Assembly (NCBI GenBank): GCA_034401795.1
Contig: CM067369.1
Span: 94,432,536 to 94,496,535 of the forward strand
DNA length: 64,000 nt
DNA from: Chaetoderma sp. LZ-2023a
Taxonomy: Eukaryota > Mollusca > Caudofoveata > Chaetodermatida > Chaetodermatidae
Direction of reading: 5' to 3'
The first letter of the stretch is position 1; each line of letters opens with the position of its first letter. The notes below the pieces were generated by a model. That model saw only the letters and a list, made by a program, of their open reading frames with translations, did not search any database and was not told the origin of the DNA. The position numbers were made by a program, and so were the translations under genes. Below are positions 1,040 to 64,000 of this stretch, piece by piece.

Positions 1040-1217
1040 CGCCGTTGAACAATCGAGAGTCCATCAGGTTGGACCCAAATTCTAGCCAACTGGTACCAAA
1101 AAAGCTGACCAAGGTTATTTGGTATCATTGGAAAGGTTATCATGCCAGGAGTTCATTTTCGCATGATAACAATCTGGAACTGGTAGCTTAAGTCCTGTCT
1201 ATCAGTTTAATTGCACC
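1040..1217 (+). repeat. left inverted repeat of transposon element 1
   Basis: This stretch reappears inverted at 4397-4562. Shared words include AGTCCATCAGG, GGTACCAAA, GCTGACCAAGGTTATTTGG, TATCATTGGAAAGGT and GGAACTGGTAGCTTAAG. Identity is roughly 80% by eye over the best 130 bp. The two repeats flank the coding relic at 1390-3745 and define a 3.5-kb element. Confidence 0.8.
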
Positions 1218-1389
1218 CCACCTCCATCCCCCCGTCAAAATTGCATAATCTACACGGATCCCTACATACAAATGCATATCAAGAGGGCATATACTATTAA
1301 AGACTGTTTAAATATACATATTTTGCGAGGAAGCATGCAAACACCGCCCCTACATTACGCAGCAGGGTAAAAATATTAATTAAAAGACG

Positions 1390-3745
1390 TCTTTGTTGAG
1401 AACCCTTGTACACTCTCATAGAAGAGAAATCAATGAACCACCATTGTGCACGGCAAAACTGGCAACCGGGGAACGTGATATTGGTGTCTCACATAATATT
1501 CGACCACGTGTGTTGACTACGTTGGCATGGATAATATTGAGAGATTGGAGGAGACTTTAACTGGTTGAGGTACATCCCATAGGGTTAGAGGAATAGCTGT
1601 TCAACCCAGAGTGTTTGGAGCGCTACCTTTCAAACCAGAGTTCCCTAAAATCATGAAATAGACCAAACGTAGTATCGCTAAACTGGAATTTCCGTAACCA
1701 ATCTATGTCTGTGGAACGCAGATTGGCCCCCAAACTTTAGAAACCGTTGACGCAGATGTAACAAGTGCGATTCCAAATGGTCAAAAGAAGAACATGATGT
1801 GGTTTCTTGCTCGAGAACTAGAACTTCCCCTCAACGTGATATTAGTTGGACAGGATTTAATATGTTGCAGTCTCACAGGATATGACTTTAGGCTGGTTGC
1901 TCGAGCAAAGTATGTATTAACTGTTTACGAGATACTCAACTAATCTGTGAAAATATGGAACGTGTACCAATTGCAGATTATTATGCTAATATGCAATCTG
2001 GTCGTCTACGCTAAAATATTGGAGATTATCTGGAAGAATCGAGAAAAATTTGATACCATTATTGTGAAAATGAAGAAATTTCATGCTATGAGTAATGCTT
2101 TGTCATTTATTGGCAAAATACCAGGATGCTGGCCTTAAGAACGTTCTTATAGAAGCTGGTGTCATCTCAGAATGATCGATGTTTGCTGTAATAGAGGTTT
2201 GTTAGAATAACATAGTAGTACTTATGCATAAATGTGTGTATGAAGCGTTTCTCCATTTCGCTTGGAAGACATTTAGCATCCAGAGCATATTAATCAGATA
2301 AACGAAGGCGTCGAAGTGATTAAATGCCTCGATTATGATCTATCAGCAGAAAGCCTTCATGTCACAATACAGAAATAACTGTTGGTTGATCTGTTGCCGT
2401 ATGCTTCACAATATACGACATTTCTGAAAAAGGGCAATGAAGAATTATCTTCATTTGTGGTCAACTACATGGATATGGTAGCAGACATTGTTTTGGGGCT
2501 GATATGTGCATCTTCCATGGTGCTACGCATGTTGCTGCTTGTTGCCTAAGTGTTTATTATGCTGAGATGTCTAGCGCTGCCAACAAAACATTCAGGTATG
2601 TACCAAAACCTTCAACAAGACGCATTTTCTGTTCAGATAGGTCTATTTAACCCCTTTGATAAGAGAAGATACCAGGTCTGTGGAGATACTGTAAATAAAG
2701 ATACTGAAACACCAGATGCTGAGCTAAATAAGGCAAAATTGTGAAAGCTGTTGCATCTACAGTAGATGTTCTAAAAGGGGTTGTTCATCCATTTACTGAT
2801 TCGAGTGATTTACAGATCATCTCGATTGCTGGCCTTGCACAATCTAATGACTTGGTTTAAAGTTTATAGACTGGTGGGTGATCCTCCTGTAAAGTTTAAT
2901 GATTCACTACCCAAAGAAATGCTAAAGACGCTCTCATATACCAAGAAAGTAACACCCAATGGTAAGTTATAAAGCGTAGGACAACCACCGACCTGTTTGG
3001 CACAGCCATGTGATCTCGACAAGAGTTCTACAACACCCGCTTGGAGCAATTCCATGGTCTCTATGCACAGCAGATGGGATATTTGGAAAAACCAGCAAAT
3101 CAGTTCTTAGATCACTAAATTGCTATGGACAGGCATACTGGTGACACAAACTCTTGAGATGAGACCGTTGTATTTAATGTTCCCGACGATGGTCGCACGG
3201 CCCCACTGGAACGATTGAGTTCCACCGGCCTTAGGAGCCGGTTTTTATTACCCGTAGAGCAGTCTCATACAGGATCCGTCACCCCGAGACCGGATGCTAA
3301 CCAGCGTCATCATTCATCGTGCACTTGTGGTACGGCGAGTCGACATCACACACAAGAATGGCCCGACACTACCCCGTGAGCTACAGCACCAAAATCCACA
3401 ACTACATCAGTAAATGAGCTCCACTACCGGTTATTCTCAGCAAAAATTGACATATCTACTCTCATCAACTTCTGCCATGTGCCAATGCACTTAGGAAGCA
3501 CACAATGTGAGCCAACTACTAAGCAGCCATACGGAGAAGTCTTCAAGGTAATTACGATGTACCAATTTCATGTGGTAATGGATGGAAGGTAGAGGTGATT
3601 GGATCCACAGTGGAGCTAATCATTGATTGGATGGATGGTGGGCTTGCTCCAAACTCAGTCATAGCCATGGTAGCATGCAAATGTTCTCGTTCGTTTACTC
3701 TCTTATCGATGATGCAAGATAGTAATGACGGTGATTTAGTTTATG
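1390..3745 (+). pseudogene. XPG/CXC-type transposon protein, degraded (element 1)
   Basis: This is a plus-strand relic of a large multicopy protein that I know from memory as recurrent predicted proteins in corals, molluscs and lancelets. Recognisable blocks in order are NIERLEETL (about 1528), VYAKILEIIWKNREKFD (about 2004), SFVVNYMDMV (about 2453), NPFDKRR with VNKDTETPD (2648-2718), LVGDPPVKF (about 2871) and DLFGTAM (about 2992). After a non-matching GC-rich stretch (about 3110-3430) come GWKVEV, DWMDGGLAPNS (about 3627) and ACKCSRS (about 3673), the start of a decayed cysteine-rich tail. The blocks lie in several frames with many stops, so the gene is dead. The middle, where the nuclease motifs should be, is missing or replaced. 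The flanking inverted repeats argue that this was the element's own protein. Academ-like is the closest class I can name. Confidence 0.72.
3110..3430. other. GC-richer stretch replacing the nuclease region of element 1
   Basis: The text between the DLFGTAM block and the C-terminal block does not match the family and is more GC-rich than its surroundings (for example 3190-3310). It could be a secondary insertion or a highly diverged part. I cannot name it. Confidence 0.4.
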
Positions 3746-4396
3746 ATCTCAATGAATGAATACATTTTGATATTCAGTGTCCCATTTTAGTAATTGAAAA
3801 TACATCGACTATGAGAACTCTAGTTTATTTTTAAAAGGCTTTCAAGCTTAGACGGCTGTCCGCATCGGTGTTATCCGAAATCCACACCAGCCTTTCGTCT
3901 ATTGACTTTATAATGATTACCCGTTTGACATAAGTTGCATACAAGGTTGTTCCGCAATATTCGTGGACAGTGGTGTTGATCCCTTGTCACAAATTTGCAT
4001 AAGATGTTTCTTATTAATAAATAGTAATTTGAGGTTTAGCATCGGGTTTAGACATTGCATGTTGTCAAATATGTACAGTTGATGAGTTATATATACATGC
4101 TGTGCTCTATGTATGATCATAATAATCATCGTAATACAGCATTGCCAACGATTTTCCAGAATGTCATACACATTTGCAATAGTTCATGGTGTGGTTATTG
4201 TTGTGATAGTAATGAGGAGGCAATTCATGCATACATGTACAAGAAAATAGCAGCACCTGTATCTATTGTAGTTAAATGCCAAGACCCAGGGGAATTACAT
4301 GGAATGATTGCACACAATTGCATGTAGAATATAGTTATATTCCCTTAACGTGCGTCGAATCTGAGATCTGTAGTAGCTTTTATTGATACTGATAGG
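3746..4396. other. interior of element 1, non-coding
   Basis: This lies between the coding relic and the right inverted repeat. The short open frames here have no recognisable motifs. Confidence 0.5.
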
Positions 4397-4562
4397 GTGT
4401 GCACTTAAGTGAGGTACAAAGCTTAAGCTACCAGTTCCAGTTTGTTATCAGGCGGAAATGAACACCTTAAATGTTCACCTTTCCAATGATACCAAATAAC
4501 CTTGGTCAGCAATTTGGTACCGGTTGACCCCTGTACCTGATGGACTATTGATCCCTCGCCTT
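4397..4562 (-). repeat. right inverted repeat of transposon element 1
   Basis: This is the inverted partner of 1040-1217. CTTAAGCTACCAGTTCCAG begins near 4422 and CCTGATGGACTATTG ends near 4551. Outside this point the two flanks no longer match, which sets the element's outer ends to within about 20 bp. Confidence 0.8.
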
Positions 4563-6375: not shown

Positions 6376-6413
6376 TGAAGAAGTTGTCAATGAGGTTTCG
6401 GCCTAGCATAATC

Positions 6414-6814
6414 AATGGACCTTTCCAGTTTATCAATCAATCATATGACGTCATAATGAACTACGTGACGTGTAGGATGCCGCCCTAATCAATGATGGCG
6501 TGAAGGACGTTGATGAGTTCGTGACTAACACTTAATGACGGACTACGCGTTGTTGTGCGAATTGAATCTCTTTACTATTTAATAAACATGCTATTGAACA
6601 TTTTGAAACTAATTTGACTGGACACTGTTCATGCCATAGGTAGCAACAGCACCCAGTCAAATTAGATTCAAAATATTCATCAGCTTACCTGGATATTTTT
6701 CTGGAAATTGATAGTCGAGGAGTTCAGGGATCGATCGATTCCAACACGAGCCAAGTGTGGGTGGAGCTTAGCTAAAGATGGGCGGGGCATAACTAAAACT
6801 GGATTCCTCCATTT
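6414..6814 (-). mobile_element. family A hairpin MITE, copy 2
   Basis: A nearly full reversed copy from AATGGACCTTTCCAGTTTA to a mutated end, GGATTCCTCCATT. The hairpin loop region is altered (GTTCATGCCATAGGTAGC). It is followed at once by a family B copy. Confidence 0.85.
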
Positions 6815-7290: not shown

Positions 7291-7662
7291 AGATGAATCT
7301 AGTTTTAGTTATGCCCCGACCATCTCTAGCTAAGCCCTAGCTAAGATCAATCGATCCCTGCACTCTCCGAATCTCAATTTCCATAGAACTATACAGGTAA
7401 GGTGTTGAATATTTTGAAAGTCATTTGTCTGGATGCTGTTGCTGCCTATGGCAGCAAGAGCGCCCAGTCAAATTACTTTCAAACTATTCAGCAGACTGTT
7501 GATTAAATAGTAAAGACACAATTCGTACAACTTGGTGGACTATTAAGCATTTATGACAGAGTAAGTCGCGGCATTCATGACGTAATTGATTAGGACCTCC
7601 GCCTACACGTGACGTAGTTGATAATGCCGTCATATGAATGATCGATAAACGGGATTCTTTCA
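7291..7662 (+). mobile_element. family A hairpin MITE, copy 3
   Basis: A forward copy with both ends decayed (AATCTAGTTTTAG; GATAAACGGGATTCTTTCAT). The central hairpin is well kept around TTGCTGCCTATGGCAGCAA (about 7438-7456). Confidence 0.8.
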
Positions 7663-8568: not shown

Positions 8569-8952
8569 AATGGAGGAATCCATTTTAGCTATGGCTCGCC
8601 AATCTTTATCTAAGCTCCACCCACGCTTCGCCCGTATTGTGAACACGGACTATCAATTTTCAGAAACTATACAGAGAAGCTGTTGAATATTTTGAAACTA
8701 ATTTGACTGGGTGCTGTTGCTGCGTATGGAAGCAGTCAAATTACTTTCAAACTATTCAACAACATGTTTACTAAATAGTAAAGACATACAATTCGTACAA
8801 CATCGCTTTACTCCCTCATCAATTATGCGTTCGTGACGAACTTAATTACGCCATTCAAGACGTCATTTATTATGACGTCATTATACAAGGTACGGAGTTG
8901 ATTATGACATCATATGCGATGATTGATGGATAAACTGGAAACGGGCGTCCAA
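8569..8952 (+). mobile_element. family A hairpin MITE, copy 4
   Basis: A forward copy. A short deletion removes the tip-proximal part of one hairpin arm (GCTGCGTATGGAAGCAGTCAAATTA). The right end GGATAAACTGGAAACGG is recognisable. Confidence 0.85.
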
Positions 8953-9485: not shown

Positions 9486-9612
9486 AACCTAGCCAAAATT
9501 CCAACATAAGAATTTTTGTTGTCATCCGACGAGTAACGTTACCCAGAATGACGTACTAAAATCCCCATCGATCCCTTTTAGGCGAAAATTTTATACGGGT
9601 TTAAATTTGAGA
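9486..9612 (+). repeat. left inverted repeat of transposon element 2
   Basis: CAAAATTCCAACATAAGA, CCAGAATGACGTACTAAAAT and CATCGATCCCTTTTAGGCG recur inverted at 12230-12356 with roughly 75-80% identity by eye. Together they enclose the minus-strand coding relic. Confidence 0.75.
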
Positions 9613-9989
9613 ACCATTCTTTTTACATATTGGGCGAAATATCATAAGGTGGTGGGGTAGCAGAAAACGGTATCGTCTGCTATTTTCCAACCAAATACAA
9701 TGTTCAACAATTGGAAATATGGACTCATACCAGGTAGGTGTGTCGTGAGCTGTACACGACCTATTTACCGGCATCACCAATAGCAAAAGGGAAAGAGGGC
9801 TATTCTACATATCGTATAATTGCTAACGAGAGTGAGAAAATGAACAATCAATTGTCATTATTTAAAAGTCTAATCATTGTCACTCAGCAGCTGAGATGCA
9901 TAGATGCTAAGGAAAATACAAACAAGTTCATCACCGAGGATAGCATAGAGATGCTCATCAGCACATGGTATACTTTGAGGTCGAAACCT
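9613..9989. other. 3' interior of element 2
   Basis: Between the left inverted repeat and the C-terminal end of the minus-strand gene. The overlapping plus-strand frame 9738-10196 is a shadow of that gene, not a gene of its own. Confidence 0.5.
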
Positions 9990-11640
9990 TTAGTTTCTTC
10001 ATCAAATATTTACCATATGGTCGATGTTGCTGCAATTCTGACCTCGGCACCGTGCCGTCACATATTTCAATACATTTTGTTGCATAAAGCATTGCTTGGT
10101 GCTACACAGATTCTTTGTTGCTGCTTTACATTTGCAACGAATGAAGTTGAGCACCTTCGATGGTTCACCATAAAAATCCGTCATTATTGGACATAAAGAG
10201 ACATTTTTCTCTTTCCATCCTCGTTCATTGTGGTTGAGTTCATCAGTGCTAAGAGTTAGCTATCTGAGAACGTGAAGGTGAACACACAGGCTGTGGAAAT
10301 AAACTGCGCGCACAGTTGTTGCGTGCCTATCTTAGTCCCTTTCGCAATCATATGCATGTATTCGGGCGTATGTCAAATAAGTAAGCGCGTCCTTCTCAGT
10401 GACATTATGCAGGCAACAGAATAGGCTAAGTCCTACACACCCAAACTCTTCCTCTTATTTGTCAAAATTCCCGATTATGTCAGACAGGACCTGCACCTCT
10501 TTGGACTTAGCCATGGCCTTCAGAAGATTTGTTTTGTCATGGCAGAACGTGGAGCACTCACTCATTCCAAACATGAATTATCAGAATACTCTGCCGGTAC
10601 CACATCAACAGCTTCTTTAAGACCCTCGCTTCGATCATTTTGCTTCCTTCTTCAGGAAAATGACAATCTGTCGTCCCAGTGATCCAGCAACAACATCAAG
10701 ACGTAAGCGTACTCAGCAAGAAATATTTAATGGCTGACAATCACTAGCATTGTCCATTGCAATCGATACTATCAGTGTATCTGCGGCTCCCATACTTATC
10801 TTCGTGACATGGCCCCATGATTGAAGATGACCTGATAGAAGGCAATTAGTTTAGTCTCGCTACCTTTTGAGAGGAATGTCTCCTGGTCACCATAAGCCTT
10901 GGCTCTATCTACAACACTACACCAGGAGAGATCTTGCCTATTTGCTATCGACCGCGCTTATCGTACATCCTAGAACTGTACTGTTCAAGCACCTGAGCAT
11001 GTGTTGCTTTTTGCCATCTTATATAGTGTAGCAGCCAGCCACCATCTATCACAGGCATGTTATGCATTGGTAACTGGGACTTAGCGTTGTCGTGGTTTGT
11101 CAGACCGTCCTGCATTGTTCTGGCCAATTCCGGTTTATCCACCTTCCTCGTGAAGAAATCTTGGAAAAAGGATGCAGAGACTGCGGCCATTTCGCATCCA
11201 AAGTCAGGAAGAATATCCTCGTCCTTTCTTTGCGTTAATGCGGTACATCGCATGAACAAAACCGATGGATCAATTCGCGCAGTTTGCTTATCGATCTTGA
11301 TTCCAGTACCATCTGAGACCTCTTCATGATTGTGCCATTTACAGATTTACCATCCATGCTCTGTTGTAACTCTTCACTGACTTTCTCGGCTCGTCCTAGC
11401 TGATGTCATCCTCTTTGCATGCAGGTCGATCACTGGCAAGAGGTCGCACTTGCAGAACATTGGGATCTAAGTATCTATGCACTTGAAACCAGCTCGTTTT
11501 CTTTCTCTTCAATCATGTTCACATCTAACTCTCCCCGTGTCCACGTGCTGATCGCTTTTAAGGTGTCGCTTCCCACCGGACAGAGTTTGAAAGAGTTGTT
11601 GCTGCCTTAGTCATCAATGGCTTTCATTCACATACCTTCT
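9990..11640 (-). pseudogene. XPG/CXC-type transposon protein, degraded (element 2)
   Basis: A minus-strand member of the same protein superfamily as elements 1 and 3. The longest piece (11259-10945) holds the block FTRKVDKPELA and then VIDGGWLLHYIRW near 11052-11014, which corresponds to the first acidic motif of the nuclease. Downstream in other frames are AYGDQETFLSKG, then GAADTLIVSIAMDNAS (10794-10747), the acidic XPG-I-like block, then CHDKTNLLKAMAKS, a worn form of the family's GCDTTSA block. The C-terminus (10184-10002) reads VLNFIRCKCKAATKNLC and continues with further cysteines, matching the family's CXC tail. There are several frame changes and stops and the DTD block is not recognisable, so the gene is not functional. 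The inverted repeats at both flanks support a transposon origin. Confidence 0.75.
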
Positions 11641-12229
11641 GAAAGTAATATTACATTGAATGCAATGCTGATTATTTTGAGAACAGTTCGATTGAAAGTT
11701 GTTGCAACAGCAATTTTCAGTAAACTCGTTTTCAAAACGTTAGTCAGTTACACTTGTATATTCTGCTGATTTTTTTGCGAATAATTTGAAGGAAAGTTGT
11801 TGCTGTTAAGAAAATATCAAGCCTAACGTGTTTCAACTCTATGCTAGAAAATACACAATTAGAATGGACCTGCTTTATACTTGCTACGCACTGTCGAGGT
11901 AGCGTTCCTCACCGTGGAGGCTACTAAGCACTGCCCTAGAGCGAGAACAATAGAATCCCAAATAATGGCAGTTACAAATATCAAAACTAAAATTGTGGTT
12001 CCAAAGAGGATGATTGTCACCAAATTTTCACAAATCTTTCCTAATGTTATTACTTCAGAATAACTTTAAAACCCGATTAACCAACGAAAAAACACATTTT
12101 CTGTCAAATGGGGAAAGATTCTGGGCGTTGAACGGTCGAATTGCCAAGAAAATAACTAAAGCCTCCCATCTTATACCACCCATATCCCATTAATTTGAAT
12201 AGTAAAACAGCCAAAAATAGTCCTTGACT
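11641..12229. other. 5' interior of element 2
   Basis: No family block is recognisable upstream of the coding relic. The text around 11660-11790 (repeated GAAAGTTGTTGC) is weakly repetitive. Confidence 0.45.
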
Positions 12230-12356
12230 TCAAACCCCTGGAAAAATTCAGTCCAAAAGTAATCGATAGGGGAATTTTAGTATGTTATTCTGTGTGACAT
12301 TATACATCGAATGACACCAAAAAATCTTATGCTGGAATTTTGTCTAAGTTCAGGCC
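12230..12356 (-). repeat. right inverted repeat of transposon element 2
   Basis: The inverted partner of 9486-9612: TAGTATGTTATTCTGTGTGA and TCTTATGCTGGAATTTTG are the reverse complements of left-end words. The matching stops near 12360. Confidence 0.75.
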
Positions 12357-12459
12357 CCTCAACGATTAGGCTAATTATTGCAAAGTGAGTATTAGAGAGA
12401 GAGAGTCAGACAAATCTATAGGGCAACTGTTTCTTTATGCCATGGCCTATTGCTACTAT

Positions 12460-12560: not shown

Positions 12561-12833
12561 TGACGGCTCAAAATGTTCCTTCCAGTAGCCGCTATAATTC
12601 CGTACATGCCACATGCGAATCAGGTCTGTTGAATATCTAGGCCACCAGGGTTCAAATGATCACCAATTTTGTCCGTTGCCTAAAATCACGCTACTCTACA
12701 TTGTTGTGATTGGCAAAGTGCTAATAAAAGAACATTTCGATATTAACGTCTTGTAGATTGTGTATTAGACAGACTATGACAAATCTAATGTACCAATGTT
12801 TATTTATTTAATAAAATCTTGTTACTATGATAA
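12561..12833. other. unassigned DNA ending in a dispersed unit
   Basis: The last part (12800-12833, AAAATCTTGTTACTATGATA) belongs to the dispersed unit that resumes after the MITE at 13227. The remainder is unassigned. Confidence 0.5.
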
Positions 12834-13226
12834 AGAACCTTTCCAGTTTCAGCTATGCTCCGCCCTCTCTAGCTAAGCTCCACCCACACCTCGCTTGTGT
12901 TGGTATTGATCGATCCCTAAACTCCATGACTATCAATTTCCAGAAAACTATACAGATAAGCTGTTAAATATTTTGAAACTAATTTGTCTGGGTGCTGTTG
13001 CTGCCTATGGCGGCAACAGCGCCCAGTCAAATTAGTTTCAAAATAGTCAACAGAATACTTATTAGTAAAGACATACAATTCGTACAACGCATACTCCGTC
13101 TTAAATTACGCGTTCGTAATGTACATATCGACGCAATAATAATGCCATTGATTATGATGTCATTCTACACGTCACGTAGTTAATTATGACGTCATATGAT
13201 GGATGCATAGCTGGAAAGGCCCATTA
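12834..13226 (+). mobile_element. family A hairpin MITE, copy 6
   Basis: A full forward copy with an almost perfect hairpin (about 12959-13047; GCTGCC-TAT-GGCGGC tip). It interrupts a dispersed unit whose uninterrupted relative lies at 13340-13450, which gives a natural empty site for judging the element's ends. Confidence 0.88.
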
Positions 13227-13843: not shown

Positions 13844-14064
13844 GGTCGCTAGATGTCAAAAGATCAACAATATTGTCAGCTGTTTAGAGTTAGCCAACTG
13901 CGCATTGTTGCGAAGGACAAAATGCTAAAAGCGTTGGTGTTACCCTAAAAAGTAAATGCTAGGTACCATGTGACAAATCGAAATTCCAATGCTCTTTTAT
14001 TTCATGGAGCTGTATTACTATGGTAACTGACAGGAAGTGCCTATTTGAAAGCATGAGAAAAGTG
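13844..14064. repeat. unassigned DNA and dispersed unit, copy 4
   Basis: 13985-14064 (TCTTTTATTTCATGGAG, TTACTATGGTAACTGACAGG, TTTGAAAGCATGAGAAAA) is the fourth unit. MITE copy 8 is inserted in it. Confidence 0.5.
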
Positions 14065-14440
14065 TAATGGACCTTTCCAGTTTTAGCTATTCCCCGCCCA
14101 TCTCTAGCTTTCCCATGTTGGGATAAATCGATCGCTGAACTCTGTGAATCTCAATTTCCATAAAACTACACATGTTAGCTTTTGATTATTTTCAAACTAA
14201 TTTGACTGGGCGCTGTTGCTGCCTATGTCAGCAACAGCGCCCAGTCAAATTAGTTTCAAAATATTCAACAACACACTTATTACATATAAAAGACATACAA
14301 TTCGTACACCGTGTCGAACTATTAACTAAATCGAGTCATTCATTCTGTAATTGATCATAAACGTCATCCTGCACGTTACGTAGTTGATTATGACATCATA
14401 TGATGTCATACGATGGATGGATGAACTGGACAGGTTCATT
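14065..14440 (+). mobile_element. family A hairpin MITE, copy 8
   Basis: A forward copy from TAATGGACCTTTCCAGTTT. About 35 bp of the GC-box part are missing. The hairpin is intact (tip GCTGCCTATGTCAGC). A family B copy follows without a gap. Confidence 0.88.
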
Positions 14441-14775
14441 CTAATGACGTAGGCTATTATAACTCCATCATGAAAATTGAAAAGTCCGTTAAATGTACGA
14501 AATGTATGTCTTTGATGGATTTTCAATTTAATAAATATTCTGTTGTGTATTTTGAAACAAATTTTCTGGGAACAGCTGTAACAGCCACAAGTAAAATTAC
14601 TTTCAAACTATTCAACCGCTTACCTGTATAGTTAGGCGTCTACATTGAAATTTCAATTCTGGGAACTGAGGTTTCAAAGTTTTTAATCGATTCCAACACG
14701 AATAAAGATTGGGTGGAGCTTAGCTAGAAATGGCCGGGCATATCTAGAAATAAATCCCTCTATAAACCACAGTAG
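14441..14775. mobile_element. family B element
   Basis: TAATGACGTAGG-like start, then TGAAAATTGAAAAGTCCGTT, a short imperfect hairpin (14547-14615), and GGAGCTTAGCTAGAAATGG followed by GGGCATATCTAGAAAT. The last two words lie 21 bp apart and form the seed of the minisatellite unit seen at 50210-53522. Confidence 0.7.
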
Positions 14776-23240: not shown

Positions 23241-23366
23241 TTTCCATTTTTACCGATGGTAGTTTATTTAATATTGTATGAAATTACCAATAAACACCAT
23301 TTGTTATTTCCCTTTCCCTTCCTTTAATATAGTAAGAGTTCTATGCTGGAGCGCGGTAAGCCTACG

Positions 23367-37405: not shown

Positions 37406-37407
37406 AT

Positions 37408-49135: not shown

Positions 49136-49163
49136 AGAGAAAGAGAGCGAGAGAGAGAGAGAG

Positions 49164-50209: not shown

Positions 50210-53200
50210 GGCTTAGCTAGAAATGAGCGTGGGATAACTAGAAATGTGCGTGGCATAACTAGAAATGAGCGTGGCATAACTAGAAATGTGCGTGGCATAA
50301 CTAGAAATGAGCGTGGCATAACTAGAAATGTGCGTGGCATAACTAGAAATGTGCGTGGCATAACTAGACATGTGCGTGGCATAACTAGAAATGAGCGGTG
50401 GCATAACTAGAAATGAGCGTGGCATAACTAGAAATGTGCGTGGCATAACTAGAAATGTGCGTGGCATAACTAGAAATGTGCGTAGCATAACTAGAAATGA
50501 GTGTGGCATAACTAGAAATCTGCGTGGCATAACTAGAAATGTGCGTGGCATAACTAGAAATGTGCGTGGCATAACTAGAAATGAGTGTGGCATAACTAGA
50601 AATGAGTGTGGCATAACTAGAAATGAGCGTGGCATAACTAGAAATGTGCGTGGCATAACTAGAAATGTGCGTGGCATAACTAGAAATGAGTGTGGCATAA
50701 CTAGAAATGTGCGTGGCATAACTAGAAATGTGCGTGGCATAACTAGAAATGAGCGTGGCATAACTAGAAATGTGCGTGGCATAACTAGAAATGAGTGTGG
50801 CATAACTAGAAATGTGCGTGGCATAACTAGAAATGTGCGTGGCATAACTAGAAATGTGCGTGGCATAACTAGAAATGTGCGTGGCATAACTAGAAATGTA
50901 CGTGGCATAACTAGAAATGTGCGTGGCATAACTAGAAATGTGTGTGGCATAACTAGAAATGAGCGTGGCATAACTAGAAATGTGCGTGGCATAACTAGAA
51001 ATGAGTGTGGCATAACGAGAAATGTGCGTGGCATAACTAGAAATGTGCGTGGCATAACTAGAAATGTGCGTGGCATAACTAGAAATGTGCGTGGCATAAC
51101 TAGGAATGTGCGTGTCATAACTAGAAATGTGCGTGGCATAACTAGAAATGTGCGTGGCATAACTAGAAATGAGTGTGGCATAACTAGAAATGTGCGTGGC
51201 ATAACTAGAAATGTGCGTGGCATAACTAGAAATGTGCGTGGCATAACTAGAAATGAGTGTGGCATAACTAGAAATGAGCGTGGCATAACTAGAAATGTGC
51301 GTGGCATAACTAGAAATGTGCGTGGCATAACTAGAAATGTGCGTGGCATAACTAGAAATGTGCGTGGCATAACTAGAAATGTGCGTGGCATAACTAGAAA
51401 TGTGCATGGCATAACTAGAAATGAGCGTGGCATAACTAGAAATGTGCGTGGCATAACTAGAAATGTGCGTGGCATAAGTAGAAATGTGCGTGGCATAACT
51501 AGAAATGTGCGTGGCATAACTAGAAATGTGCGTGGCATAACTAGAAATGAGCGTGGCATAACTAGAAATGAGCGTGGCATAACTAGAAATGTGCGTGGCA
51601 TAACTAGAAATGTGCGTGGCATAACTAGAAATGTGCGTGGCATAACTAGAAATGTACGTGGCATAACTAGAAATGTGCGTGGCATAACTAGAAATGTGCG
51701 TGGCATAATTAGAAATGTGCGTGGCATAACTAGAAATGTACGTGGCATAACTAGAAATGAGTGTGGCATAACTAGAAATGTGCGTGGCATAACTAGAAAT
51801 GTGCGTGGCATAACTAGAAGTGTGCGTGGCATAACTAGAAATGTGTGTGGCATAACTAGAAATGTGTGTGGCATAACTAGAAATGAGCGTGGCATAACTA
51901 GAAATGTGCGTGGCATAACTAGAAATGAGTGTGGCATAACTAGAAATGTGCGTGGCATAACTAGAAATGTGCGTGGCATAACTAGAAATGTGCGTGGCAT
52001 AACTAGAAATGTGCGTGGCATAACTAGGAATGTGCGTGGCATAACTAGAAATGTGCGTGGCATAACTAGAAATGTGCGTAGCATAACTAGAAATGAGTGT
52101 GGCATAACTAGAAATGTGCGTGGCATAACTAGAAATGTGCGTGGCATAACTAGAAATGTGCGTGGCATAACTAGAAATGAGTGTGGCATAACTAGAAATG
52201 AGTGTGGCATAACGAGAAATGAGCGTGGCATGACTAGAAATGTGCGTGGCATAACTAGAAATGTGCGTGGCATAACTAGAAATGAGTGTGGCATAACAAG
52301 AAATGTGCGTGGCATAACTAGAAATGAGTGTGGCATAACTAGAAATGAGCGTGGCCTAACTAGAAATGTGCGTGGCATAACTAGAAATGTGCGTGGCATA
52401 ACTAGAAATGAGCGTGGCATAACTAGAAATGTGCGTGGCATAACTAGAAATGAGCGTGGCATAACTAGAAATGTGCGTGGCATAACTAGAAATGAGTGTG
52501 GCATAACTAGAAATGTGCGTGGCATAACTAGAAATGTGCGTGGCATAACTAGAAGTGTGCGTGGCATAACTAGAAATGTGCGTGGCATAACTAGAAATGT
52601 GCGTGGCATAACTAGAAATGAGTGTGGCATAACTAGAAATGAGCGTGGCATAACTAGAAATGAGCGTGGCATAACTAGAAATGAGCGTGGCATAACTAGA
52701 AATGTGCGTGGCATAACTAGAAATGTGCGTGGCATAACTAGAAATGTGCGTGGCATAACTAGAAATGTGCGTGGCATAACTAGAAATGTGCGTGGCATAA
52801 CTAGGAATGTGCGTGGCATAACTAGAAATGTGCGTGGCATAACTAGAAATGTGCGTGGCATAACTAGAAATGAGTGTGGCATAACTAGAAATGTGCGTGG
52901 CATAACTAGAAATGTGCGTGGCATAACTAGAAATGTGCGTGGCATAACTAGAAATGTGCGTGGCATAACTAGAAATGAGTGTGGCATAACTAGAAATGAG
53001 CGTGGCATAACTAGAAATGTGCGTGGCATAACTAGAAATGAGTGTGGCATAACTAGAAATGTGCGTGGCATAACTAGAAATGTGCGTGGCATAACTAGAA
53101 ATGTGCGTGGCATAACTAGGAATGTGCGTGGCATAACTAGAAATGTGCGTGGCATAACTAGAAATGTGCGTGGCATAACTATAAATGAGTGTGGCATAAC

Positions 53201-53522
53201 TAGAAATGTGCGTGGCATAACTAGAAATGTGCGTGGCATAACTAGAAATGTGCGTGGCATAACTAGAAATGTGCGTGGCATAACTAGAAATGTGCGTGCC
53301 ATAACTAGAAATGTGTGTGGCATAACTAGAAATGAGCGTGGCATAACTAGAAATGTGTGTGGCATAACTAGAAATGTGCGTGGCATAACTAGAAATGGGT
53401 GTGCCATAACTAGAAATGTGTGTGGCATAACTAGAAATGTGCGTGGCATAGCTAGAAATGTGTGTGGCATTACTGGAAATGAGCGTGGCATAACTAGAAA
53501 TGTGCGTGGCATAACTAGAAAT
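50210..53522. repeat. 21-bp minisatellite, about 158 units
   Basis: The unit is GGCATAACTAGAAAT followed by a 6-base variable part (mostly GTGCGT, also GAGCGT, GAGTGT, GTGTGT, GTACGT). The period is exactly 21 except for one inserted G near 50397. Units at the right end (53280-53500) are the most diverged (GTGCCAT, ATTACTGG). Because 21 is a multiple of three and most phases lack stops, frames of 1099 codons (minus, heptad MPRTFLV), 1047 codons (plus, heptad GITRNVR) and others are open. None shows codon or motif evidence for a protein. Longer blocks are duplicated within the array at offsets of 44, 52 and 76 units. Confidence 0.95.
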
Positions 53523-53742: not shown

Positions 53743-54115
53743 TAATTGACCCTTCCAGTTTATCCATCCATCATATGAGGTCATAATCAACTACGTGACA
53801 CGTAAGCTGACGCCATAATCAATTACGTCATCCATGACGTGATTTAGTCCGTCTTAAACGCTTAATAGTCCGACACGTTGCACGAATTGTATGTTTTTAC
53901 TATTTAATAAACACTCTGTCGAATATTTTAAAACTAATTTGACTGGACGTACCCAGTAACATTAGTTTCAAAGTATTCAGCAGCGAACCTGTATAGTTTT
54001 CTGGAAATTGATAGTCAATGGAGTTCAGGGATCGATAGATCCCAACACGAGCGAGGTGTGAGTAGAGCTTAGCTAGAGATGTGCGGGGCATAACTAAAAC
54101 TGGAGAGATCCATTA
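53743..54115 (-). mobile_element. family A hairpin MITE, copy 17
   Basis: A reversed copy, TAATTGACCCTTCCAGTTTA to CTGGAGAGATCCATTA. The hairpin tip has collapsed (GACTGGACGTACCCAGTAAC), leaving only the outer arms. Confidence 0.86.
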
Positions 54116-54330
54116 ATCATTTGCGTACCCTTAGATCTAATCAATACCAGAATAATGCGATGGAACGTTAATAGCATTATTCCAAACGAAGAAGAACTAA
54201 ATTAAATTAATAAGTTCTCGATGACAATCAATATTTATTCAAGAACTCTGATTACCGCACATGTAGCAGATGGTAACTGTATTAACAATTTGAATTACTA
54301 ACTTAATCATTGCAGTGGTTGATGAATCAA

Positions 54331-54654: not shown

Positions 54655-55052
54655 AATTCATCTTTCCAGAGTATCCATCTATCATCTGACGTCACAATCA
54701 ACTAAGCCGCGTGTAGGATGATATCATAATCATTACGCTATAAATGATTATATTTGACCCTCTTTAACTCTTAATAGTCTGACACTTTGTACGAATTATA
54801 TGTCTCTATTATTTAATAAACAATCTGATGAATATTTTGAAAATAATTTGACTGGACACTGTTGCTGCCATAGGCAGCAACAGCGCCCAGTCAAATTAGT
54901 TCCAAAATATTCAATAGCTTACCCGTATAGTTTTCTGGAAATCGATAGTCAGGGAATTCATCGATCGATCGATCGATCGATCACAACACGAGCGAGGTGT
55001 GGGTGGAGCTTAGCTAGAGAAGGGCGGCGCATAGCTTAAAATGTCCATTAAT
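54655..55052 (-). mobile_element. family A hairpin MITE, copy 19
   Basis: A reversed copy with a good hairpin (54825-54917; tip GCTGCCATAGGCAGC). Its GATCGATC stretch has grown to about six GATC units at 54958-54983. Confidence 0.88.
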
Positions 55053-55324: not shown

Positions 55325-56395
55325 TCACACTTGGAGAGCCGTTCTCAAGCTGAAATCTGTGGTTTTCTGCAGTTCTTCCACAGGCCCATACAGCTTTTCA
55401 AGAAAAGAGGTTGACAAAGGCCAGATCTCTTCTCTCAGCAGCTGATACGTACTGCAACATTGAAGTATGTGCTCTGTGGTCAGTTCTGCTTCTCCACAAG
55501 GACAAGCGGGCGATGTCGTAAGGTGGAACCGCATGTACATGTGTTGGTTTAGTCTGTTATGTCCAGTTCTGAGACGAAAAATGGTCACTTGCTCTGGCCT
55601 CGAGAGATGATGGTAGGCATCTTCTGATTGAGGTGTTCTATAGAGTGACTTGATGATAGTCTTCATCTCTGTATGCGTAACCATGTTTTCTGTCTGATTC
55701 TCTTCTGCACCCACCTTTGCCATCTTGTCTGCTTCCTCATTTCCTTGGACCCCACGGTGTGAGGGGATCCACTGCAATGCTATCCGAAAGCATTTGATGG
55801 TTTGTAGTGCTTCTTCAAGTTGTGGCAGCTTACCTTTGGTGATAGCCTCAAGGACGGAGCGGGCATCAGATAAAAAGACAATCTGTGCAATAGGGTCTGC
55901 TGTTCTGCTGATGGTATTAGCTGCATGGACCAGTGCTTCGACTTCAGCTCTGTAGTTTGTGCAGTGTTTACCTGTCGGTATTGCAGCTGACTCATGCTGT
56001 CCGTTTGGATACTATATGTGCAGTCCGGCACCTCCGCTCATAATTGCATCTTTGGCTGATCCATCTGTGTAGATCCTTATCCACGTCTCCTGAGGGTACA
56101 TTTCTTCCAGCATGGCTAGGGTCAGGGCCTTATTGCTCACATCACTGTGTTCATCTTTGGTTGTGAGATGAGGTACTGTGGTGCGAATAGCTATGCTCTC
56201 TAGTTTGTTTTCCCAGGGTGGATGATCAAGGGTGTGGTTTTGGTCTTCTATTTGTGCTGGCAACATTTCTTGGTGTTTCCTTTGAAGTGCTTTTGTTTCT
56301 TTCACAAAACTTGATCTTTTAAGTCTTCCCGATGACAGCTGTGCTTGCCTGATCTTCATCGGATGGTTGTTGAACGATTTGAACTTTGCAGCTTG
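55325..56395 (-). pseudogene. LINE RNase H domain and C-terminal Cys/His motif
   Basis: Removes the RNA strand during element copying. The frame starts about 56395 (FKSFNNHPMKI). The domain carries all acidic residues expected of RNase H: YTDGSAKDA (about 56075), NYRAEVEAL (about 55950), VFLSDARSVLEA (about 55870) and GNEEADKMAK (about 55735), plus the SHRG motif. One in-frame TAG lies at 56012-56014. The C-terminal part has PACPCGEAELTTEHILQCC, a CCHC-like motif typical of the group. RNase H together with an APE endonuclease places the LINE in the I superfamily. Confidence 0.9.
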
Positions 56396-57900
56396 GACCA
56401 GTGCTTTGCATTCCCTTCCTTTACTAAGTGGGGGATGCCTGCTGTCTGCTCCATTTTTTCTATTGGTGTTGATCTCATTCCACCAGTGATGATGCGCAGT
56501 GCCTGGTTTTGTACTCTGTCGAGGTTCTGTTGATGAGATTTAGCTGCTGTCATCCATGAGCTGGATCCATACTCAAGGTGTGGTCGTACGGCACCTAGGT
56601 AGATGGTCTTGAGGATCCTTTCATTGGCACCCCACTTTGTTCCTGCCAGCTTCCTCATGATGTTTAGCTTTCTTCTGGCCTTTGCCTCTGCGTTCTGGAT
56701 GTGCTCCTTCCATGTTAATCTTCTGTCATAGGTGACTCCCAGGTATGTCTGCTGGTCCTCGTACTCGAGTGGAGTACCGCCCAGTGTCAGATTGCCAACC
56801 TTGGTTTTGGTGGACAGTGAGAATAGCATGGCTGATGATTTTTCTTTGTTGATGGTAATACACCAGCGATTGGCACAAGCTGTAATTCTGTCCAAGGCGA
56901 GCTGCGTTCTGTACGTGGCAGTCGTTGTGTACTCCTCGGTGCACCAGAGTACGAGGTCATCTGAATAGAGGGCTGCTTGGATCCCATTTGGCAGCTCTGC
57001 TACAATATCATTAATGAAGAGTATGAACAGAGTTGGTGATAATACTCCGCCTTGTGGTACCCTTGTCTCAGCAATACATTCTGTCCAGATTGTCCATCCA
57101 CCAGCACCCTAGCTCTGCGATTGTGTAGGTATGACTTGGTCCATCGGAACATGTTGCCACCGATGCCTGTGCGCCGGAGCTTCACGAGGAGGCCATCCTT
57201 CCACACCTTGTCAAATGCCTTCTGCAGATCAATAAAGGCAGCTAGCATCACCTTCTTGGCTTGAAAAGTGTCCTCTATGACCTGTGCAAGATGTGTTGTT
57301 TGATCTTCTGTGCTCCTGTATCTTCTGAAGCCAGCCTGCTCTGAAACTATTGTGTTCTCCGACTCCAGGTACCACTGCAACCGCTGGTTGACGATGCGCT
57401 CCATGGTCTTGCATATGCAGCTTGTAAGACTGATAGGACGGTAGCTCAGCACTCTCGTCTTGTTCTTCCCTTTTTTCAGAATAGGAGTCATTCTGGCTTC
57501 CTTCCAGCACTGTGGAACTTCTCCTTTGGTTCAACTGAGATTAAAGATATCTAGCAACTTGCGGAGAGATGCATTACCAAGGTGTTGGATCATTTCATTC
57601 GTAATGCCATCTGGTCCGGGAGATTTCTTCTTCTTCAATTGGCGGATAGACTTCTTCAGTTCTGCTAAACTAATGTCAACTTTCATTGCATCGTGAGTGT
57701 TGGTGTGTGTACTTTCCTTTTTCTCTTTTCTAACCTCTTTTTGACGCATTCGTGGAATAGAAATGTTGCTTTCTTTTGCATATGCCTTCGCAAAGGCATC
57801 TGCAGCCATCTTTCCTGACAGTGTTTGTCCATCTTCTTCAAGAGTAATCTTCTCTCCCCCGACACCTTCATCATTCAGTGCTTTAGTCAGTCTCCATAGC
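56356..57900 (-). pseudogene. LINE reverse transcriptase domain
   Basis: Copies the element RNA at the nicked target. From 57890 downward: KALNDEGVGG, KKKKSPGPDGITNEM (about 57620), an in-frame TGA at 57531-57533 at a position where a tryptophan codon (TGG) is likely, QCWKEARMTPILKKG, LSYRPISLTS (about 57440), AAFIDLQKAFDKVWK (motif A, about 57235), then a one-base loss in a G run near 57065 that shifts the frame, QGGVLSPTLFILFINDI, and LYSDDLVLW (motif C, YSDD, about 56965). The thumb region follows, with YLGVTYDRRLTWKEHI and LRIITGGMRSTP, down to a second shift near 56410. Confidence 0.9.
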
Positions 57901-58105
57901 TTTGTTGTGTCTCTCTCTCTGAATTAAACCCTGCCGTCTTTTCCCTCCAGCTTCTTCTTTTGGCCTCCAGCTTGTCCAGTAGGGGCGGTAGTTTTTCCTG
58001 AACCCTCGAGGAATCGCTTCGTTGGCAGCCTTGAGGATACTTGAATTAAATTCCTTGACCGCATTGTTGATGTTTCTCCCTTCTACTGCTATATTTTGGG
58101 TAAGC

Positions 58106-59035
58106 TCATTGGAACGAATGCCGAACAGACTCCAATTTGCCTTTTTGTAGTTCCACCTTGGATGTTGAGTTGAACTTGTTGAAATACTCCCAGAAAGAGA
58201 GAGAGAGGAGGACTGGGCGGTGGTCGCTTCCTCCTAACTGCGATCCGACCACTCTACTGAGGTTTCTGTGAATGTCTTCTGTACAAAATGTCAAGTCCGG
58301 CGTTGTTGTCGAGTGCCACCGGCGCGAGTAGAAGGTAGGCTGATCTGTGGGATCGTTGACAAGTAAAAGGTGCTTTTCATCTTGCCATGCTTCAATGTCT
58401 TCTCGTTTATCAAGTGTTCTGTATCCCCAGCTCTGAGACTGGCTATTAAAGTTTCCCGCAATGAGGAAGTGGCAGTCCGGGACCTGGATTGTGTCAAGTG
58501 AGAGATTCTTGTCATTAGGGCAGTAATAATTGACAATGTCAATCACAGAGTTGCTGGTTGTTACCTTGATCTTGATATATTCTGCCTCTTCCATAAAGGT
58601 TTTGATCTGGCTGGCGTTCACGTTGTTTCGGACCAAGGTGATCACCCAGCCTTTCTTTCTTCCTCTTCGATCACACCGGAAGATCTGGTAACCTCTGATC
58701 TTAAATGGTTTTCCTTCTTGCAGGTGTGTCTCTTGGATGCAGCAGATATCAATGTTGTTTTCGTACAGGACCTGTTTGAGCTCTGATTTCTTGTTGGTAA
58801 CCCCTTCTGCGTTCCAGTGCATGATGTTGATACTGGGGTTCTCTTTGGGTTTGGTCTTCTCTTTCGGTTGGCCAATATCTCTCCATCCTCGTCTTCTGGC
58901 TCCACAAGACGAGTTGATGGGACCTCCAGTAGCTGAGGGTGGGCTCCTTCGAGGCGTGGAGCCCGGCGCTGCACCTGCCTGGCAGATCCTCACAGGCCAA
59001 CCACCATTTCGTTTGATTCGATCTCCAAGTGTCAT
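58106..59035 (-). pseudogene. LINE endonuclease domain (APE type)
   Basis: A 309-codon frame at the 5' end of the LINE. It would nick the target DNA to prime reverse transcription. Recognisable motifs are MHWNAEGV (about residue 72), IQETHL (100-105), the GDFN position, which here reads AGNFNSQSQSWG, PDLTF and GSDHRPVLL (about 268-276). In the family the GDFN aspartate and the following histidine are catalytic or structural; here they are N and Q, so this copy's endonuclease is probably dead. The frame shifts near 58160, where the sequence continues in another frame as PRWNYKKANWS and YRPYWTSW down to about 57930. Confidence 0.9.
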
Positions 59036-59148: not shown

Positions 59149-59159
59149 GCTAGCATATT
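59149..59159. repeat. target-site duplication at LINE 5' end
   Basis: GCTAGCATATT, identical to 55291-55301. Confidence 0.88.
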
Positions 59160-59489: not shown

Positions 59490-60195
59490 ATTAAAAAAAC
59501 CGTTTTCAAAACGGCCGCCAGGTCGCACATTTTGTACAAAAATACTAGTGTAGACTGGGATGTACTTTCCGTAGGAAATGCATGCCCGAAGTGAGATAGT
59601 GGTTGATTCCACTTCATTAGGTTGTGAAATGAAGAACAATTTTAGGTAACAGTTTTTTCGCCACCTATGACCCCTGTAGGGTACAAAAAATCCAAAATGG
59701 CCGCCATCGTTCATGGATACTACAGAGAATGGCATATCTGTGGAACCACTTGACCAATTTCAATGATGTCAGAGTCCGTTTTATGGTTTTCAAATATGCC
59801 CGATCATTTGGAACTGGTTTCTTGTCGACAGGCGGTCAAGGGTATGGCAAGGTCACGGTCAACTTACTTTTTGGCCTCTCGCTGCAGAAATATGAGTATC
59901 TATGGAGTTAATAGATCAATTTATATGATGTTAGCCTCTATTGTTGGGTTTTCAAACATGCCCGATCATTTGGAATGGGTTTTATCTCGATAAAGGGTCC
60001 ATGTCACAGAGCAAGGTCAAGATCTCAGCCAATTTTGGACTCTCGGTGCAGAAATATGAACACCTCTCCAGTTAATTGATCAAGTTGCATGGTGTTAAAC
60101 TCTACTGTAGGGTTTTCAGACAGGCCTGATTATTTGCAACATGTTTCATGTCGATAGGAAGTCAAGGTCATGCAGCAAGGTCAAAGTCATAATAA
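59490..60195 (+). repeat. left long inverted repeat of transposon element 3
   Basis: Three tandem subrepeats of about 162 bp (CGATCATTTGG-like words at 59801 and 59963, TGATTATTTGC near 60127) with CTCTCGCTGCAGAAATATGA and AGGTCAAG-type words. The same units occur inverted at 63560-64000. For example TCTATTGTTGGGTTTTCAAA at 59937 is found as its reverse complement near 63931. The part 59490-59720 (TTTTCAAAACGGCCGCC, AAAATGGCCGCC) may be the outer tip; its partner would lie beyond the window. Confidence 0.78.
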
Positions 60196-60400
60196 CAATA
60201 ATCTCTGTTAATAATTATCTGAAACATATTCCAAATAGTCAGGCATGTCTGAAAGCCTACAATAAAGTCTAACATGTATATCGGAACAGGCACTTTAATA
60301 ATCGCCATATTATTATCTCCTTCAGTTTCCTGACTCCATCAAGTCCAGTCATGTCAAATCGAGGTACTTGTGCTCAAAACGATCCAAATTATATATAGAA
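60196..60400. other. non-coding lead of element 3
   Basis: No conserved block seen. Confidence 0.4.
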
Positions 60401-60404
60401 ATCA

Positions 60405-63270
60405 AACATTCTGAAACATGTGTGTGCGTCGTGTTTAAAAGTAACTCTACAAACTTTGTTGCTGATCATGATATTAAACAGATATGTGATATATTATACT
60501 ATGCAACACGCTTGGCAGACCTAGGGTAAGCTGATTTGAGACCCCTATCAGATTATCTTTCTAGTTTATCCCGACCTGAGCTAGAAAGAATTAGATATCA
60601 TTCATATTGTCGTAAAAAAATTGTAAATGAGCCACAGGAAAGGCGTTCAAGAGAGGAGTTGAATATTATCTCATGAATGTGCTTGCCTGTTTCAACTTCA
60701 AATTTGATGGAGTACTGGGAGAAATATCTCCTGATGTACCTCTCCGGACAAAGTGCGAGCAACTCAAATCCAGCCTTCACCAGCGGAATGAGAACGTTAC
60801 AGACATGTACAACGACTTGGCATCGCATCATATGGATCAGATAGAATCTAAGCTTATGGATGCTGGGGAGTTGGTCAGATTCTTGACAAACTACATGTAA
60901 CAAGTCCAGTGTCTACTGCACATCATCAGTGCATGCCGTCTGGGCGACTGGGAGGCGTATCTGGCTGCCCTGAACGATCAGATCCAATACTTCTTCGCTC
61001 ATGACCTGTACCACTACACACGCCTTATACCTATCCACCTGGCCCAAATGAATCAGCTTGAAAACTATGGCCAGACAACGTGGAAGGCACTTAAGGAGGG
61101 CAACCTCCGTGTAAAAAAGTCTGACTTTTCCTTCACTGCACTCTTTGCAGATCAGGCTCTTGAACAGAAGATCAAGGAGTTGAAAGGGGTTCGGCATCTT
61201 GTGGGTATTACGCAAGACGAGGTCTCTCTTGACCGTGTTATCACCACATTGTCCCACATCACCTCTATCGTCAGTGATTGGCTGTGTAGATTTCCCCGCT
61301 TCTCAGGTGCCCCCCCCCCACCCCCTCCTCCTCTTCAGGTGAACATTATCAGCTTTCTGGCGATATAGCCCTACAATCAACCAGGAATGCGCTGATGCTG
61401 AGGGATTCCATCTCGATCCACTGCGAAGGTAACACCTTCATTGTGGGGGCGCCACTAAAGAGCCTTGTGTCATCAGTGCTTGGTTCCAAGGAGGACATAC
61501 TCAGCCAGAATGAAAAGGGGCTGGAGGGATATCGAACGTTTCTCAGAACCGTCTTGTACCTGCCGCACCCATGTCTGTGTGGGACACAATGAAGAAGATG
61601 AGGCTCAAGACCTTGAAAACACGGATGGCGAAGATGCGTGTGAGTGTAGGAGAAAAGGTCACCAGGCTCCGAGAAGAGAGACAGCTCCCTGCCCGCTTCC
61701 TCGTCATTCAACAGTCACGCCCCGAGCTAGTTCTCCGCTTGCCTGCAACCATTGGCAATTACGAAATGGCGGTAACACCGAGGTCAATGTATGCCTCAGG
61801 TGAATCACTCCTTATCCCAACACACAAAGCATCCATCATACATGCTGTTGAGGAGGCAAAGCACATTCAGACCGATACACAGACATCACCACCCGAATCA
61901 ACCATCCAAGCACCAGCACATGAGGATGCACACAATGGCCATCTCAGCATTCTCATCAATGGCTCCGTTGAACCCAATGAGCGTGTTATTATCATTGACA
62001 GAATGGCTGTTATTCAATGGATGAGAAAAAGATCCTCAACTTCAAAGAAGCATTTGTTAAGAGAATCACAAGAATGGTGAAACCGTACGATGAGGGGCGC
62101 ATTATATTTGACAACTATAACATCACTCAATCACTGAAGCAAAAGATGAGGGCGAAGCGAACACAAGGAAATGAGATGGGGTTTGCGATCCATGACGAGA
62201 TGACAATCGCTAAGGTTACCTTTAAAGAGCTACTTTCTGCTTCCAGGACAAAGGCGATCCTCTCCAACACATTTGGTGATGCTGTACTGGAGGCATACAC
62301 AGGATCACAGAAGGTGGTGGTCGTGAAAGGTACCACAGCTCAGATCAATCAACCCCACTCTTGAGCAGAATCCATGTCCACTCATAATCATGAGAAGGCA
62401 GACACCACGATTTCTCTGCATGTCATCAATGCCGTACATGACTCCACTCCGAGGGAGATAGATGTATGATCGCCTGCCACTGACGTACTGATCTTGTTGC
62501 TGGACCTTGTGGCTCATGGACGACTAGGTACATTGAATAACCTCAGGTTCCTTACTGGGCGCTTAAACGCAACAAATATCGATCGATCAACATTCGTGAG
62601 CGTGTGAGTGCTATTTGTCAAGAGGCGTGTCAAGGTCTGATTGGTTTCCATAGCTTCACTGGGGCAGATTGGGGTGGGAAATTTGTTGGAATCTCAAGGA
62701 GGAGTTGGATCGCCTCGTACCTATCCTTGCTCAATGATGACCCTATCGTCTCTGCCTTCAAACCTTTGGGTGATGGTGTCCTCACAAACACTGAATTGGT
62801 GGACGGTGTGATGTCCGAAGAAGTGTGGCCTATCGAGAGGTTTGTGTGCTCAGTATACAGTTCTGGGGGTCTAACTAACATCCCAGCTTTGCGATGGGAA
62901 CTGTTCAGGTCCAGAAATCTGGAGGGCGAAAAGCTTCCTCCGACCAGAGCAACACCGTTACCCCATACCTTATGTACGAACTTTGTGTCTATGAGAGACT
63001 AAAGCTATACAACACCTTACCCATGCCTACCGCCGCTAGAGGAGTATGGATGGGTGCTTAACAGGAGTATATCCCAGCCCGGTGACTCTACAAACAAGCA
63101 CCAGTCCCTGTATTAGAGCTGATCAAATGTGGTTGCCAGACATCTTGCAAGGGTCACTGCTCATGCAAGAAGAACAACCTCCCATGTAGTGCGCTCTGCA
63201 AATGTCACACTAGTGATTGCAGCAACCTTCCTGACTACAGGATGATGGAAGATGAAGACGACGATGCATG
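60405..63270 (+). pseudogene. XPG/CXC-type transposon protein (element 3), best preserved copy
   Basis: An intronless plus-strand gene, broken by several frame changes and stops. N-terminal block: HDIKQICDILYYATRL and ERIRYHSYCRKK (60470-60615). Second block, open from 60673 to 61368 apart from one TAA at 60898: LGDWEAYLAALNDQIQYFFAHD, LPIHLAQM-type text and LVGITQDEVSLDRV. Third: MSVWDTMKKMRLKT to RPELVLRLPATIGNYEM (61571-61780). Nuclease blocks in FEN1/XPG order: VIIIDRMAVIQWM (D at 61997), GRIIFDNYN (D at 62110), HEKADT (E at 62392, D at 62401), SPATDVLILLLDL (D at 62482), GFHSFTGADWGGKFVGI (D at 62667). Then PALRWELFRSRNLEGEKLPPTRA. The tail (63118-63222) has nine cysteines spaced as in tesmin/TSO1 CXC domains. 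It probably acted as the transposase or nuclease of its element; that role is inference. Confidence 0.8.
63118..63270 (+). other. CXC (tesmin/TSO1-like) zinc domain of element 3
   Basis: Frame KCGCQTSCKGHCSCKKN then CSALCKCHTSDC: CXC-X3-C-X3-CXC-X6-C-X3-CXC-X4-C. In plants and animals such cysteine-rich domains bind zinc and DNA. It is followed by an acidic tail and a TGA stop. An equivalent tail closes the genes of elements 1 and 2. Confidence 0.82.
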
Positions 63271-63559
63271 ATTGTCGCATGAACATGAAAGAAGACTGTT
63301 TTTGGGATTGTGTGCCCCTAAGTCACTTCTTACTAAGTATTCCCAGTGACATGCTTCATGATAGATACAATTATATTACAGCTTAGATTTGATATTATTC
63401 AATGTGCTGCATGGGTATGTGTGTCTCCCTTTTGATGTACTTCAGGTTACTTGACATAGATACATGCACTTCAGTTCTCTGACTGCAGCATTATTCGCAT
63501 CCCGATTGGTTATTATATGTTGACATTTCTTTTGCCCTGGCCATGTGACTTTGAAGTCC
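63271..63559. other. 3' interior of element 3
   Basis: No gene or clear repeat is recognised. Confidence 0.4.
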
Positions 63560-64000
63560 AATCGACCTGAAAGCTGATCAAAATGATCAGACTGGTGAGA
63601 ACCCTGCAATACACTCAAACATCATGCAAATTGATCAATTAACTCGAGTGGTACTCATATTTCTTCACCGAGAGGTTAAAAATGGCATTGACTATGATGC
63701 CCGACATTTACCTTATATCAACCTGAAACATAATCCAAATGTAGGCCTACGCGCATGTTTGAAACCCATACAATAAAGTTTCAGATTGTGCAAATTGATC
63801 GATTCACACCAGACGTGCTCCGATTTATGTACCGAGAGGCTGAAATGGATATGACCTTGACCTTTCTCTGTGTCTTTACCTCATATCGAGATAAAAACCT
63901 ATTGCAAATGATTGGGCATGTTTGAAAACCCAACAATAGAGTCTAACATCACGCAAATTGATCAATTACCTCCAGATGTGCTCATATTTTTGCACCGAGA
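63560..64000 (-). repeat. right long inverted repeat of transposon element 3 (cut by window)
   Basis: Read on the minus strand this is at least two and a half subrepeats of the left repeat: CTCGGTGCAAAAATATGAG, TTGATCAATTTGC, TCTATTGTTGGGTTTTCAAA, CATGCCCAATCATTTGCAA, AAGGTCAAGGTCAT. The element's right end lies outside the window. Confidence 0.8.

Follow-up and report, generated by a model that had tools for sequence, protein, structure and literature searches.

Why should a cut-and-paste transposase carry a flap-type nuclease of its own? The question is raised by a stretch of 64,000 nucleotides (the window) from the mollusc Chaetoderma sp. LZ-2023a (contig CM067369.1, positions 94,432,536 to 94,496,535), in which a reading of the sequence alone had pointed to three coding relics, each lying between its own pair of long inverted repeats and joining an XPG nuclease to a cysteine-rich CXC tail. 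These relics, numbered 1 to 3 along the window, are very probably dead, internally deleted copies of separate DNA transposon families that are best placed in AcademX and whose single protein, of up to ~1,600 amino acids (aa), comprises a DDE transposase, an XPG-type nuclease and a CXC domain. The parts now supplied towards an answer are the termini, the target-site duplication, the catalytic residues and the domain folds.

Three relics and their inverted repeats

The presence of three coding relics, each between its own long inverted repeats, was confirmed by local alignments that scored far above the highest of 200 shuffles. For relic 1 (arms 1052-1297 and 4331-4552) 179 of 253 columns were identical, with a score of 166 against a shuffle maximum of 36. 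The corresponding values were 161/235 for relic 2 (9486-9708 and 12127-12350; 127.5 against 38.5) and 347/501 for the window part of relic 3 (59729-60199 and 63505-63985; 296 against 36). No arm-to-arm match between different relics was found at E<=0.05, which bears out three separate inverted-repeat families. That the relics have a protein family in common was upheld by tblastn and by two protein-family profiles, A1 and A2, searched against stop-free segments of at least 25 aa in all six frames (E<=10). A1 matched 13 segments and A2 14, every one inside the three relics, and the same search of the reversed window gave no match to either. All three genes are broken and each is without parts of the full-length protein; Pfam gave nothing useful on six relic pieces.

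The relics stood as first read, but the positions of the element termini moved once copies elsewhere were compared (Table 1). Relic 3 overruns the window, both ends of relic 1 were placed, and the working termini of relic 2 (9486/12350) shifted outward; its left end, expected from the copies at ~9454, is obscured because of a neighbouring dispersed repeat. Dispersed repeats of ~400 base pairs (bp) lie on both strands throughout the window, and a pair of them (e.g. 9266-9411/13668-13813) was therefore rejected as the flanks of relic 2 in favour of its own arms. In locus L009 the left and right arms of relic 3 align over 594 columns at 80.5%. Units of ~164 bp are repeated within these arms (59869-60184 and 63505-64000), so that both arms consist in part of tandem repeats.

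Copies in the host genome

Copies with the same inverted repeats were found in the 2.44-Gb host assembly for all three families, all of them multi-copy. A 468-bp probe from relic 3 gave at least 42 matching rows, from the 40 scored of 67 candidates. The left arm of relic 1 gave at least 40 matches (window arm included) from 40 scored of 102, and that of relic 2 at least 40 from 40 scored of 287. With relic 1, 35 of the 39 other matches start at query position 19 or 20, equivalent to 1058/1059 in the window, and a T precedes in all 17 left ends that were read. The family termini are TAGTGYAGACTG, TAGTCCATCAGG and TAGYCTAGTCG, and all begin 5'-TAG.

Twenty copies of the relic 3 family were examined, each in a stretch of 9.9 kb. 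The inverted-repeat pair exceeded 300 bits in 12 and 100 bits in 14, and was missing from six. Both termini could be read in eight, which define elements of 4.6 to 7.1 kb with arms 79.5 to 82.9% identical. The longest stop-free stretch over coding matches was 326 aa, hence all 20 loci look broken, barring unseen introns. Two overlapping loci, L018 and L019 (G000 C2:29903000-29917900), hold near-identical copies that are separated by ~6.6 kb and share their right flank; a locus with one copy seems to have been duplicated in tandem. Of four longer copies of the relic 1 family, two yielded both ends, at lengths of 5.2 and 4.3 kb, and enclose transposase and C-terminal coding; the other two yielded no right end. 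All four long copies of the relic 2 family contain relic-2-like coding and two yielded both ends (3.4 and 6.1 kb). A single-copy, syntenic gene never flanked by inverted repeats would have told against the sequence-only reading, and the copies contradict this: the same repeats surround copies at other loci.

Target-site duplication

The expected target-site duplications proved to be of 3 bp, by a count of matches over the whole set. In the eight relic 3 copies with both termini the 3 bp beside the ends match at 14 of 24 positions, against a mean of 5.4 when flanks were re-paired, and none of 14,833 re-pairings reached 14; the other 12 had been left out for eroded or missing ends or an overlapping locus. 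Lengths of 2 and 4 to 12 bp showed no comparable excess; 10 and 11 bp exceeded the null a little (values reached by 1,127 and 1,172 of 14,833 re-pairings) and were not taken as signal. A set of 13 copies was made by adding two relic 1 copies, relic 1 of the window and two relic 2 copies. Relic 2 of the window was not included owing to its obscured left end, and L046 was counted though a local duplication contains its right end. Here the 3-bp match was 23/39 against 10.3 expected, with 0 of 20,000 re-pairings reaching 23, and none of the other lengths from 2 to 10 bp was in excess: the count was 26/104 (null 26.9) at 8 bp, the length seen in P and hAT elements, 27/117 (null 28.1) at 9 bp and 38/130 (null 33.9; reached by 4,117 of 20,000) at 10 bp. 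Exact duplications remain in four of the 13, namely TAC on both sides of relic 3 in the window, CTC (L021), GTT (L047) and TTT (L052), whereas none of the three bases match at relic 1 of the window. A 4-bp duplication at relic 1 (TCGA/TTGA) was rejected, there being no 4-bp excess over the set. Though decayed, the 3-bp duplications are clear when the copies are taken together.

The protein family

With the pieces of relic 3 as query 15 relatives were found, and with the C-terminal half of one relative 226; lengths reach ~1,600 aa among the 120 matches listed, the few named sources among which are fish, molluscs, a sea spider, amphioxus, a sea anemone and a sea cucumber. The relatives have an RNase-H-like DDE transposase, then a nuclease of the XPG/FEN1/EXO1 type and then a single C-terminal LIN54-like CXC domain. 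The nuclease and the CXC tail had been seen at the outset and the N-terminal DDE domain, the likely catalytic core, had been missed. Predicted models of this domain match the P-element, Hermes and RAG1 recombinases, with an all-helical insertion predicted before the Glu. The residues D183, D413 and E654 are conserved in intact relatives, and the relics keep parts only; in relic 3 tblastn found no match to the transposase part with the first two catalytic Asp. Between the second D and the last E lies a GxxH motif, in which G437 and H440 are nearly invariant (H440 in 60/60). The analysis suggests that Pfam DUF6589 is the transposase domain.

Predicted models of the nuclease match EXO1, XRN and FEN1, and all 50 of the 50 matches listed are 5' nucleases of that fold. 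Its acidic positions E138, D140, D165, D167 and D227 are invariant in the 52-row alignment A1, while the nuclease-site residues of relic 3, read by eye, are altered. The best sequence match of profile A1 in PDB, a designed helical protein (E 0.0014), was taken as chance. The CXC tail held up on two counts, a match to PF03638 in P0134 (31.3 bits against a cut-off of 23.5) and a match to the LIN54 structure at E 0.0027. P0134 was the only one of 16 relatives scanned to pass the PF03638 cut-off; P0003, P0015, P0119 and P0126 fell below it. LIN54-type sites (TTYGAA) are not clearly enriched: the six arms hold 0, 0, 0, 2, 2 and 3 of them, and the window as a whole has ~2 per kb.

Four Nymphon striatum proteins named as RPC2, USP16, USP45 and a TRAPP subunit (P0062, P0080, P0081 and P0082) have matches to the transposon protein that span 44-74% of the query; these gene models have probably been fused with coding sequence of the transposon.

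Placement among DNA transposons

Academ elements carry an accessory nuclease of XPG type. AcademX is reportedly a lineage of the Academ superfamily (Kojima, in 2020). The present elements share with AcademX the DDE transposase, the accessory nuclease and the 3-bp duplication, and this supports the Academ-like part of the sequence-only reading in the features that were tested; they fit new AcademX families of known kind, the comparison with Academ being by description and not by sequence. According to PMC10045372, duplications are of 3 or 4 bp in AcademX and 9 or 10 bp in AcademH, a difference tied to the nuclease as against the helicase. The elements here lack the 9-10 bp signal of AcademH, and no helicase family was found when 16 relatives were compared with Pfam (E up to 1 or 0.5), a separate helicase gene not having been sought. 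PMC10294476 reports that Academ abounds in bivalves, where the 100 curated families have a mean length of 5,565 bp; the two-ended copies here measure 3.4-7.1 kb.

Some points qualify this placement. Pfam XPG models matched none of the 16 relatives; the best fold matches of the transposase are the P element and Hermes; and no Academ sequence entered the comparison. The last two would suit a sister superfamily to Academ, with DDE and XPG domains in the same order but phylogenetically apart and possibly closer to P, to hAT or to some other group. We consider this unlikely, as PMC10045372 names both the nuclease and the 3-bp duplication as AcademX features. The present family is like P, hAT (Hermes) and RAG1 in that its DDE core is predicted to be RNase-H-like and to have a helical insertion ahead of the Glu, but it has GxxH where P and hAT have C/DxxH, the fused nuclease and CXC tail are on its side of the comparison only, and its duplication is of 3 bp. 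The duplications of P and hAT are 8 bp long and those of RAG 5 bp.

The accessory domains also differ from their cellular counterparts. The nuclease resembles the FEN1, EXO1, XPG and XRN 5' nucleases in fold and acidic motifs but has ~10% sequence identity to them, and it lies behind a transposase in one chain. The CXC tail has the cysteine pattern of LIN54/tesmin (PF03638), with most members below the cut-off; it is a single unit, whereas the LIN54 CXC is a tandem pair. No link between a CXC tail and an Academ transposase, nor any mention of 'DUF6589', was found in the open-licence literature searched.

Proposed mechanism

In AcademX elements of this kind the DDE domain may cut and join the 3' ends at positions staggered by 3 bp, the fused nuclease would trim 5' flaps or the ends of the non-transferred strand in cis, and the CXC domain could bind the long arms and so recognise the ends. 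We tentatively propose that one chain combines two nuclease chemistries: a P/hAT/RAG-like DDE core would cut and join, an EXO1-FEN1-type nuclease would substitute for host FEN1 in processing the 5' ends, and the CXC domain would read the arms. Alternatively, the nuclease domain may no longer cut and may act as a DNA-binding or scaffold part, as the weak similarity to EXO1 in sequence (E 0.55) might suggest; the invariance of all five acidic positions, expected under selection on catalysis, makes this improbable. That host nuclease genes merely happen to sit between unrelated repeats is scarcely credible, for although animal gene sets list members of the family as hypothetical or CXC-domain proteins, there are dozens of copies in one genome, surrounded by the same repeats and with termini and 3-bp duplications in common, as befits transposons.

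Other features of the window

The dispersed ~400-bp repeat has a self-complementary core (e.g. 46688-46782 at 92.6%) and occupies 14 longer places, besides fragments, in 64 kb (Table 1). A 21-bp unit is repeated in tandem ~158 times at 50206-53522; there are long open stretches in several frames on both strands, but this is an array and not a gene. On the minus strand, judged by eye, an uninterrupted open frame of 343 aa (18509-19540) has the look of a Tc1/mariner transposase, and broken open frames at 55325-59035 resemble a long interspersed nuclear element with endonuclease and reverse transcriptase.

Table 1. Positions in the window of the three relics, their parts and the dispersed repeat
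Feature	Position	Strand	Basis or remark
Relic 1, whole element, internally deleted	1057..4547	+	Ends from copies and inverted alignment
Relic 1, left terminal inverted repeat	1057..1297	+	Family terminus TAGTCCATCAGG, first base changed in window copy
Relic 1, right terminal inverted repeat	4331..4547	-	Local alignment, copies
Relic 1, transposase (DDE) coding remains, broken frames	1530..2274	+	tblastn P0134 residues 331-585, E 3.6e-21; profile 1944-2135
Relic 1, piece between transposase and nuclease domains	3022..3108	+	Short tblastn matches, best E 0.003; profile 2980-3141, E 1.7e-6
Relic 1, C-terminal part into CXC tail	3469..3693	+	tblastn P0134 residues 1292-1364, E 3e-10; profile E 0.002
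Relic 2, left terminal inverted repeat	9486..9708	+	Outermost ~30 bp obscured
Relic 2, right terminal inverted repeat	12127..12373	-	Terminus TAGCCTA
Relic 2, coding remains before and into nuclease domain	10930..11325	-	tblastn P0075 E 4e-6; profile E 1.1e-5
Relic 2, C-terminal cysteine-rich CXC tail	10005..10331	-	tblastn P0006 E 1.3e-4; profile E 3.5e-7
Relic 3, element, internally deleted	59546..64000, continuing to 64328 on window scale	+	Termini read in L009; 4,783 bp
Relic 3, left terminal inverted repeat	59546..60199	+	Terminus TAGTGTAGACTG
Relic 3, right terminal inverted repeat, window part	63505..64000	-	Alignment, copies, L009
Relic 3, transposase C-terminal half (helical insertion and conserved Glu region)	60634..61311	+	tblastn P0009 78.5% identity, E 1.5e-132
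Relic 3, linker and XPG-type nuclease domain, broken frames	61514..63080	+	tblastn P0001 E 9e-169
Relic 3, CXC zinc tail	63086..63268	+	Profile E 2e-15; tblastn
Dispersed ~400-bp repeat	278-663, 6413-6803, 7292-7654, 8569-8941, 12826-13225, 14064-14441, 23364-23768		
Dispersed ~400-bp repeat, continued	33576-33980, 34083-34469, 37406-37796, 46558-46973, 48823-49136, 53743-54120, 54655-55043		

Implications

A family that has stood in animal gene sets as hypothetical proteins, as 'CXC domain' proteins or as apparently mis-fused housekeeping proteins is now given an identity. It is quite possible, though we would not yet call it probable, that the large 'uncharacterised' animal family with HEEADT...DTDV...TGCD motifs is mostly the protein of this transposon, and that this protein is a machine with two nucleases in one chain.
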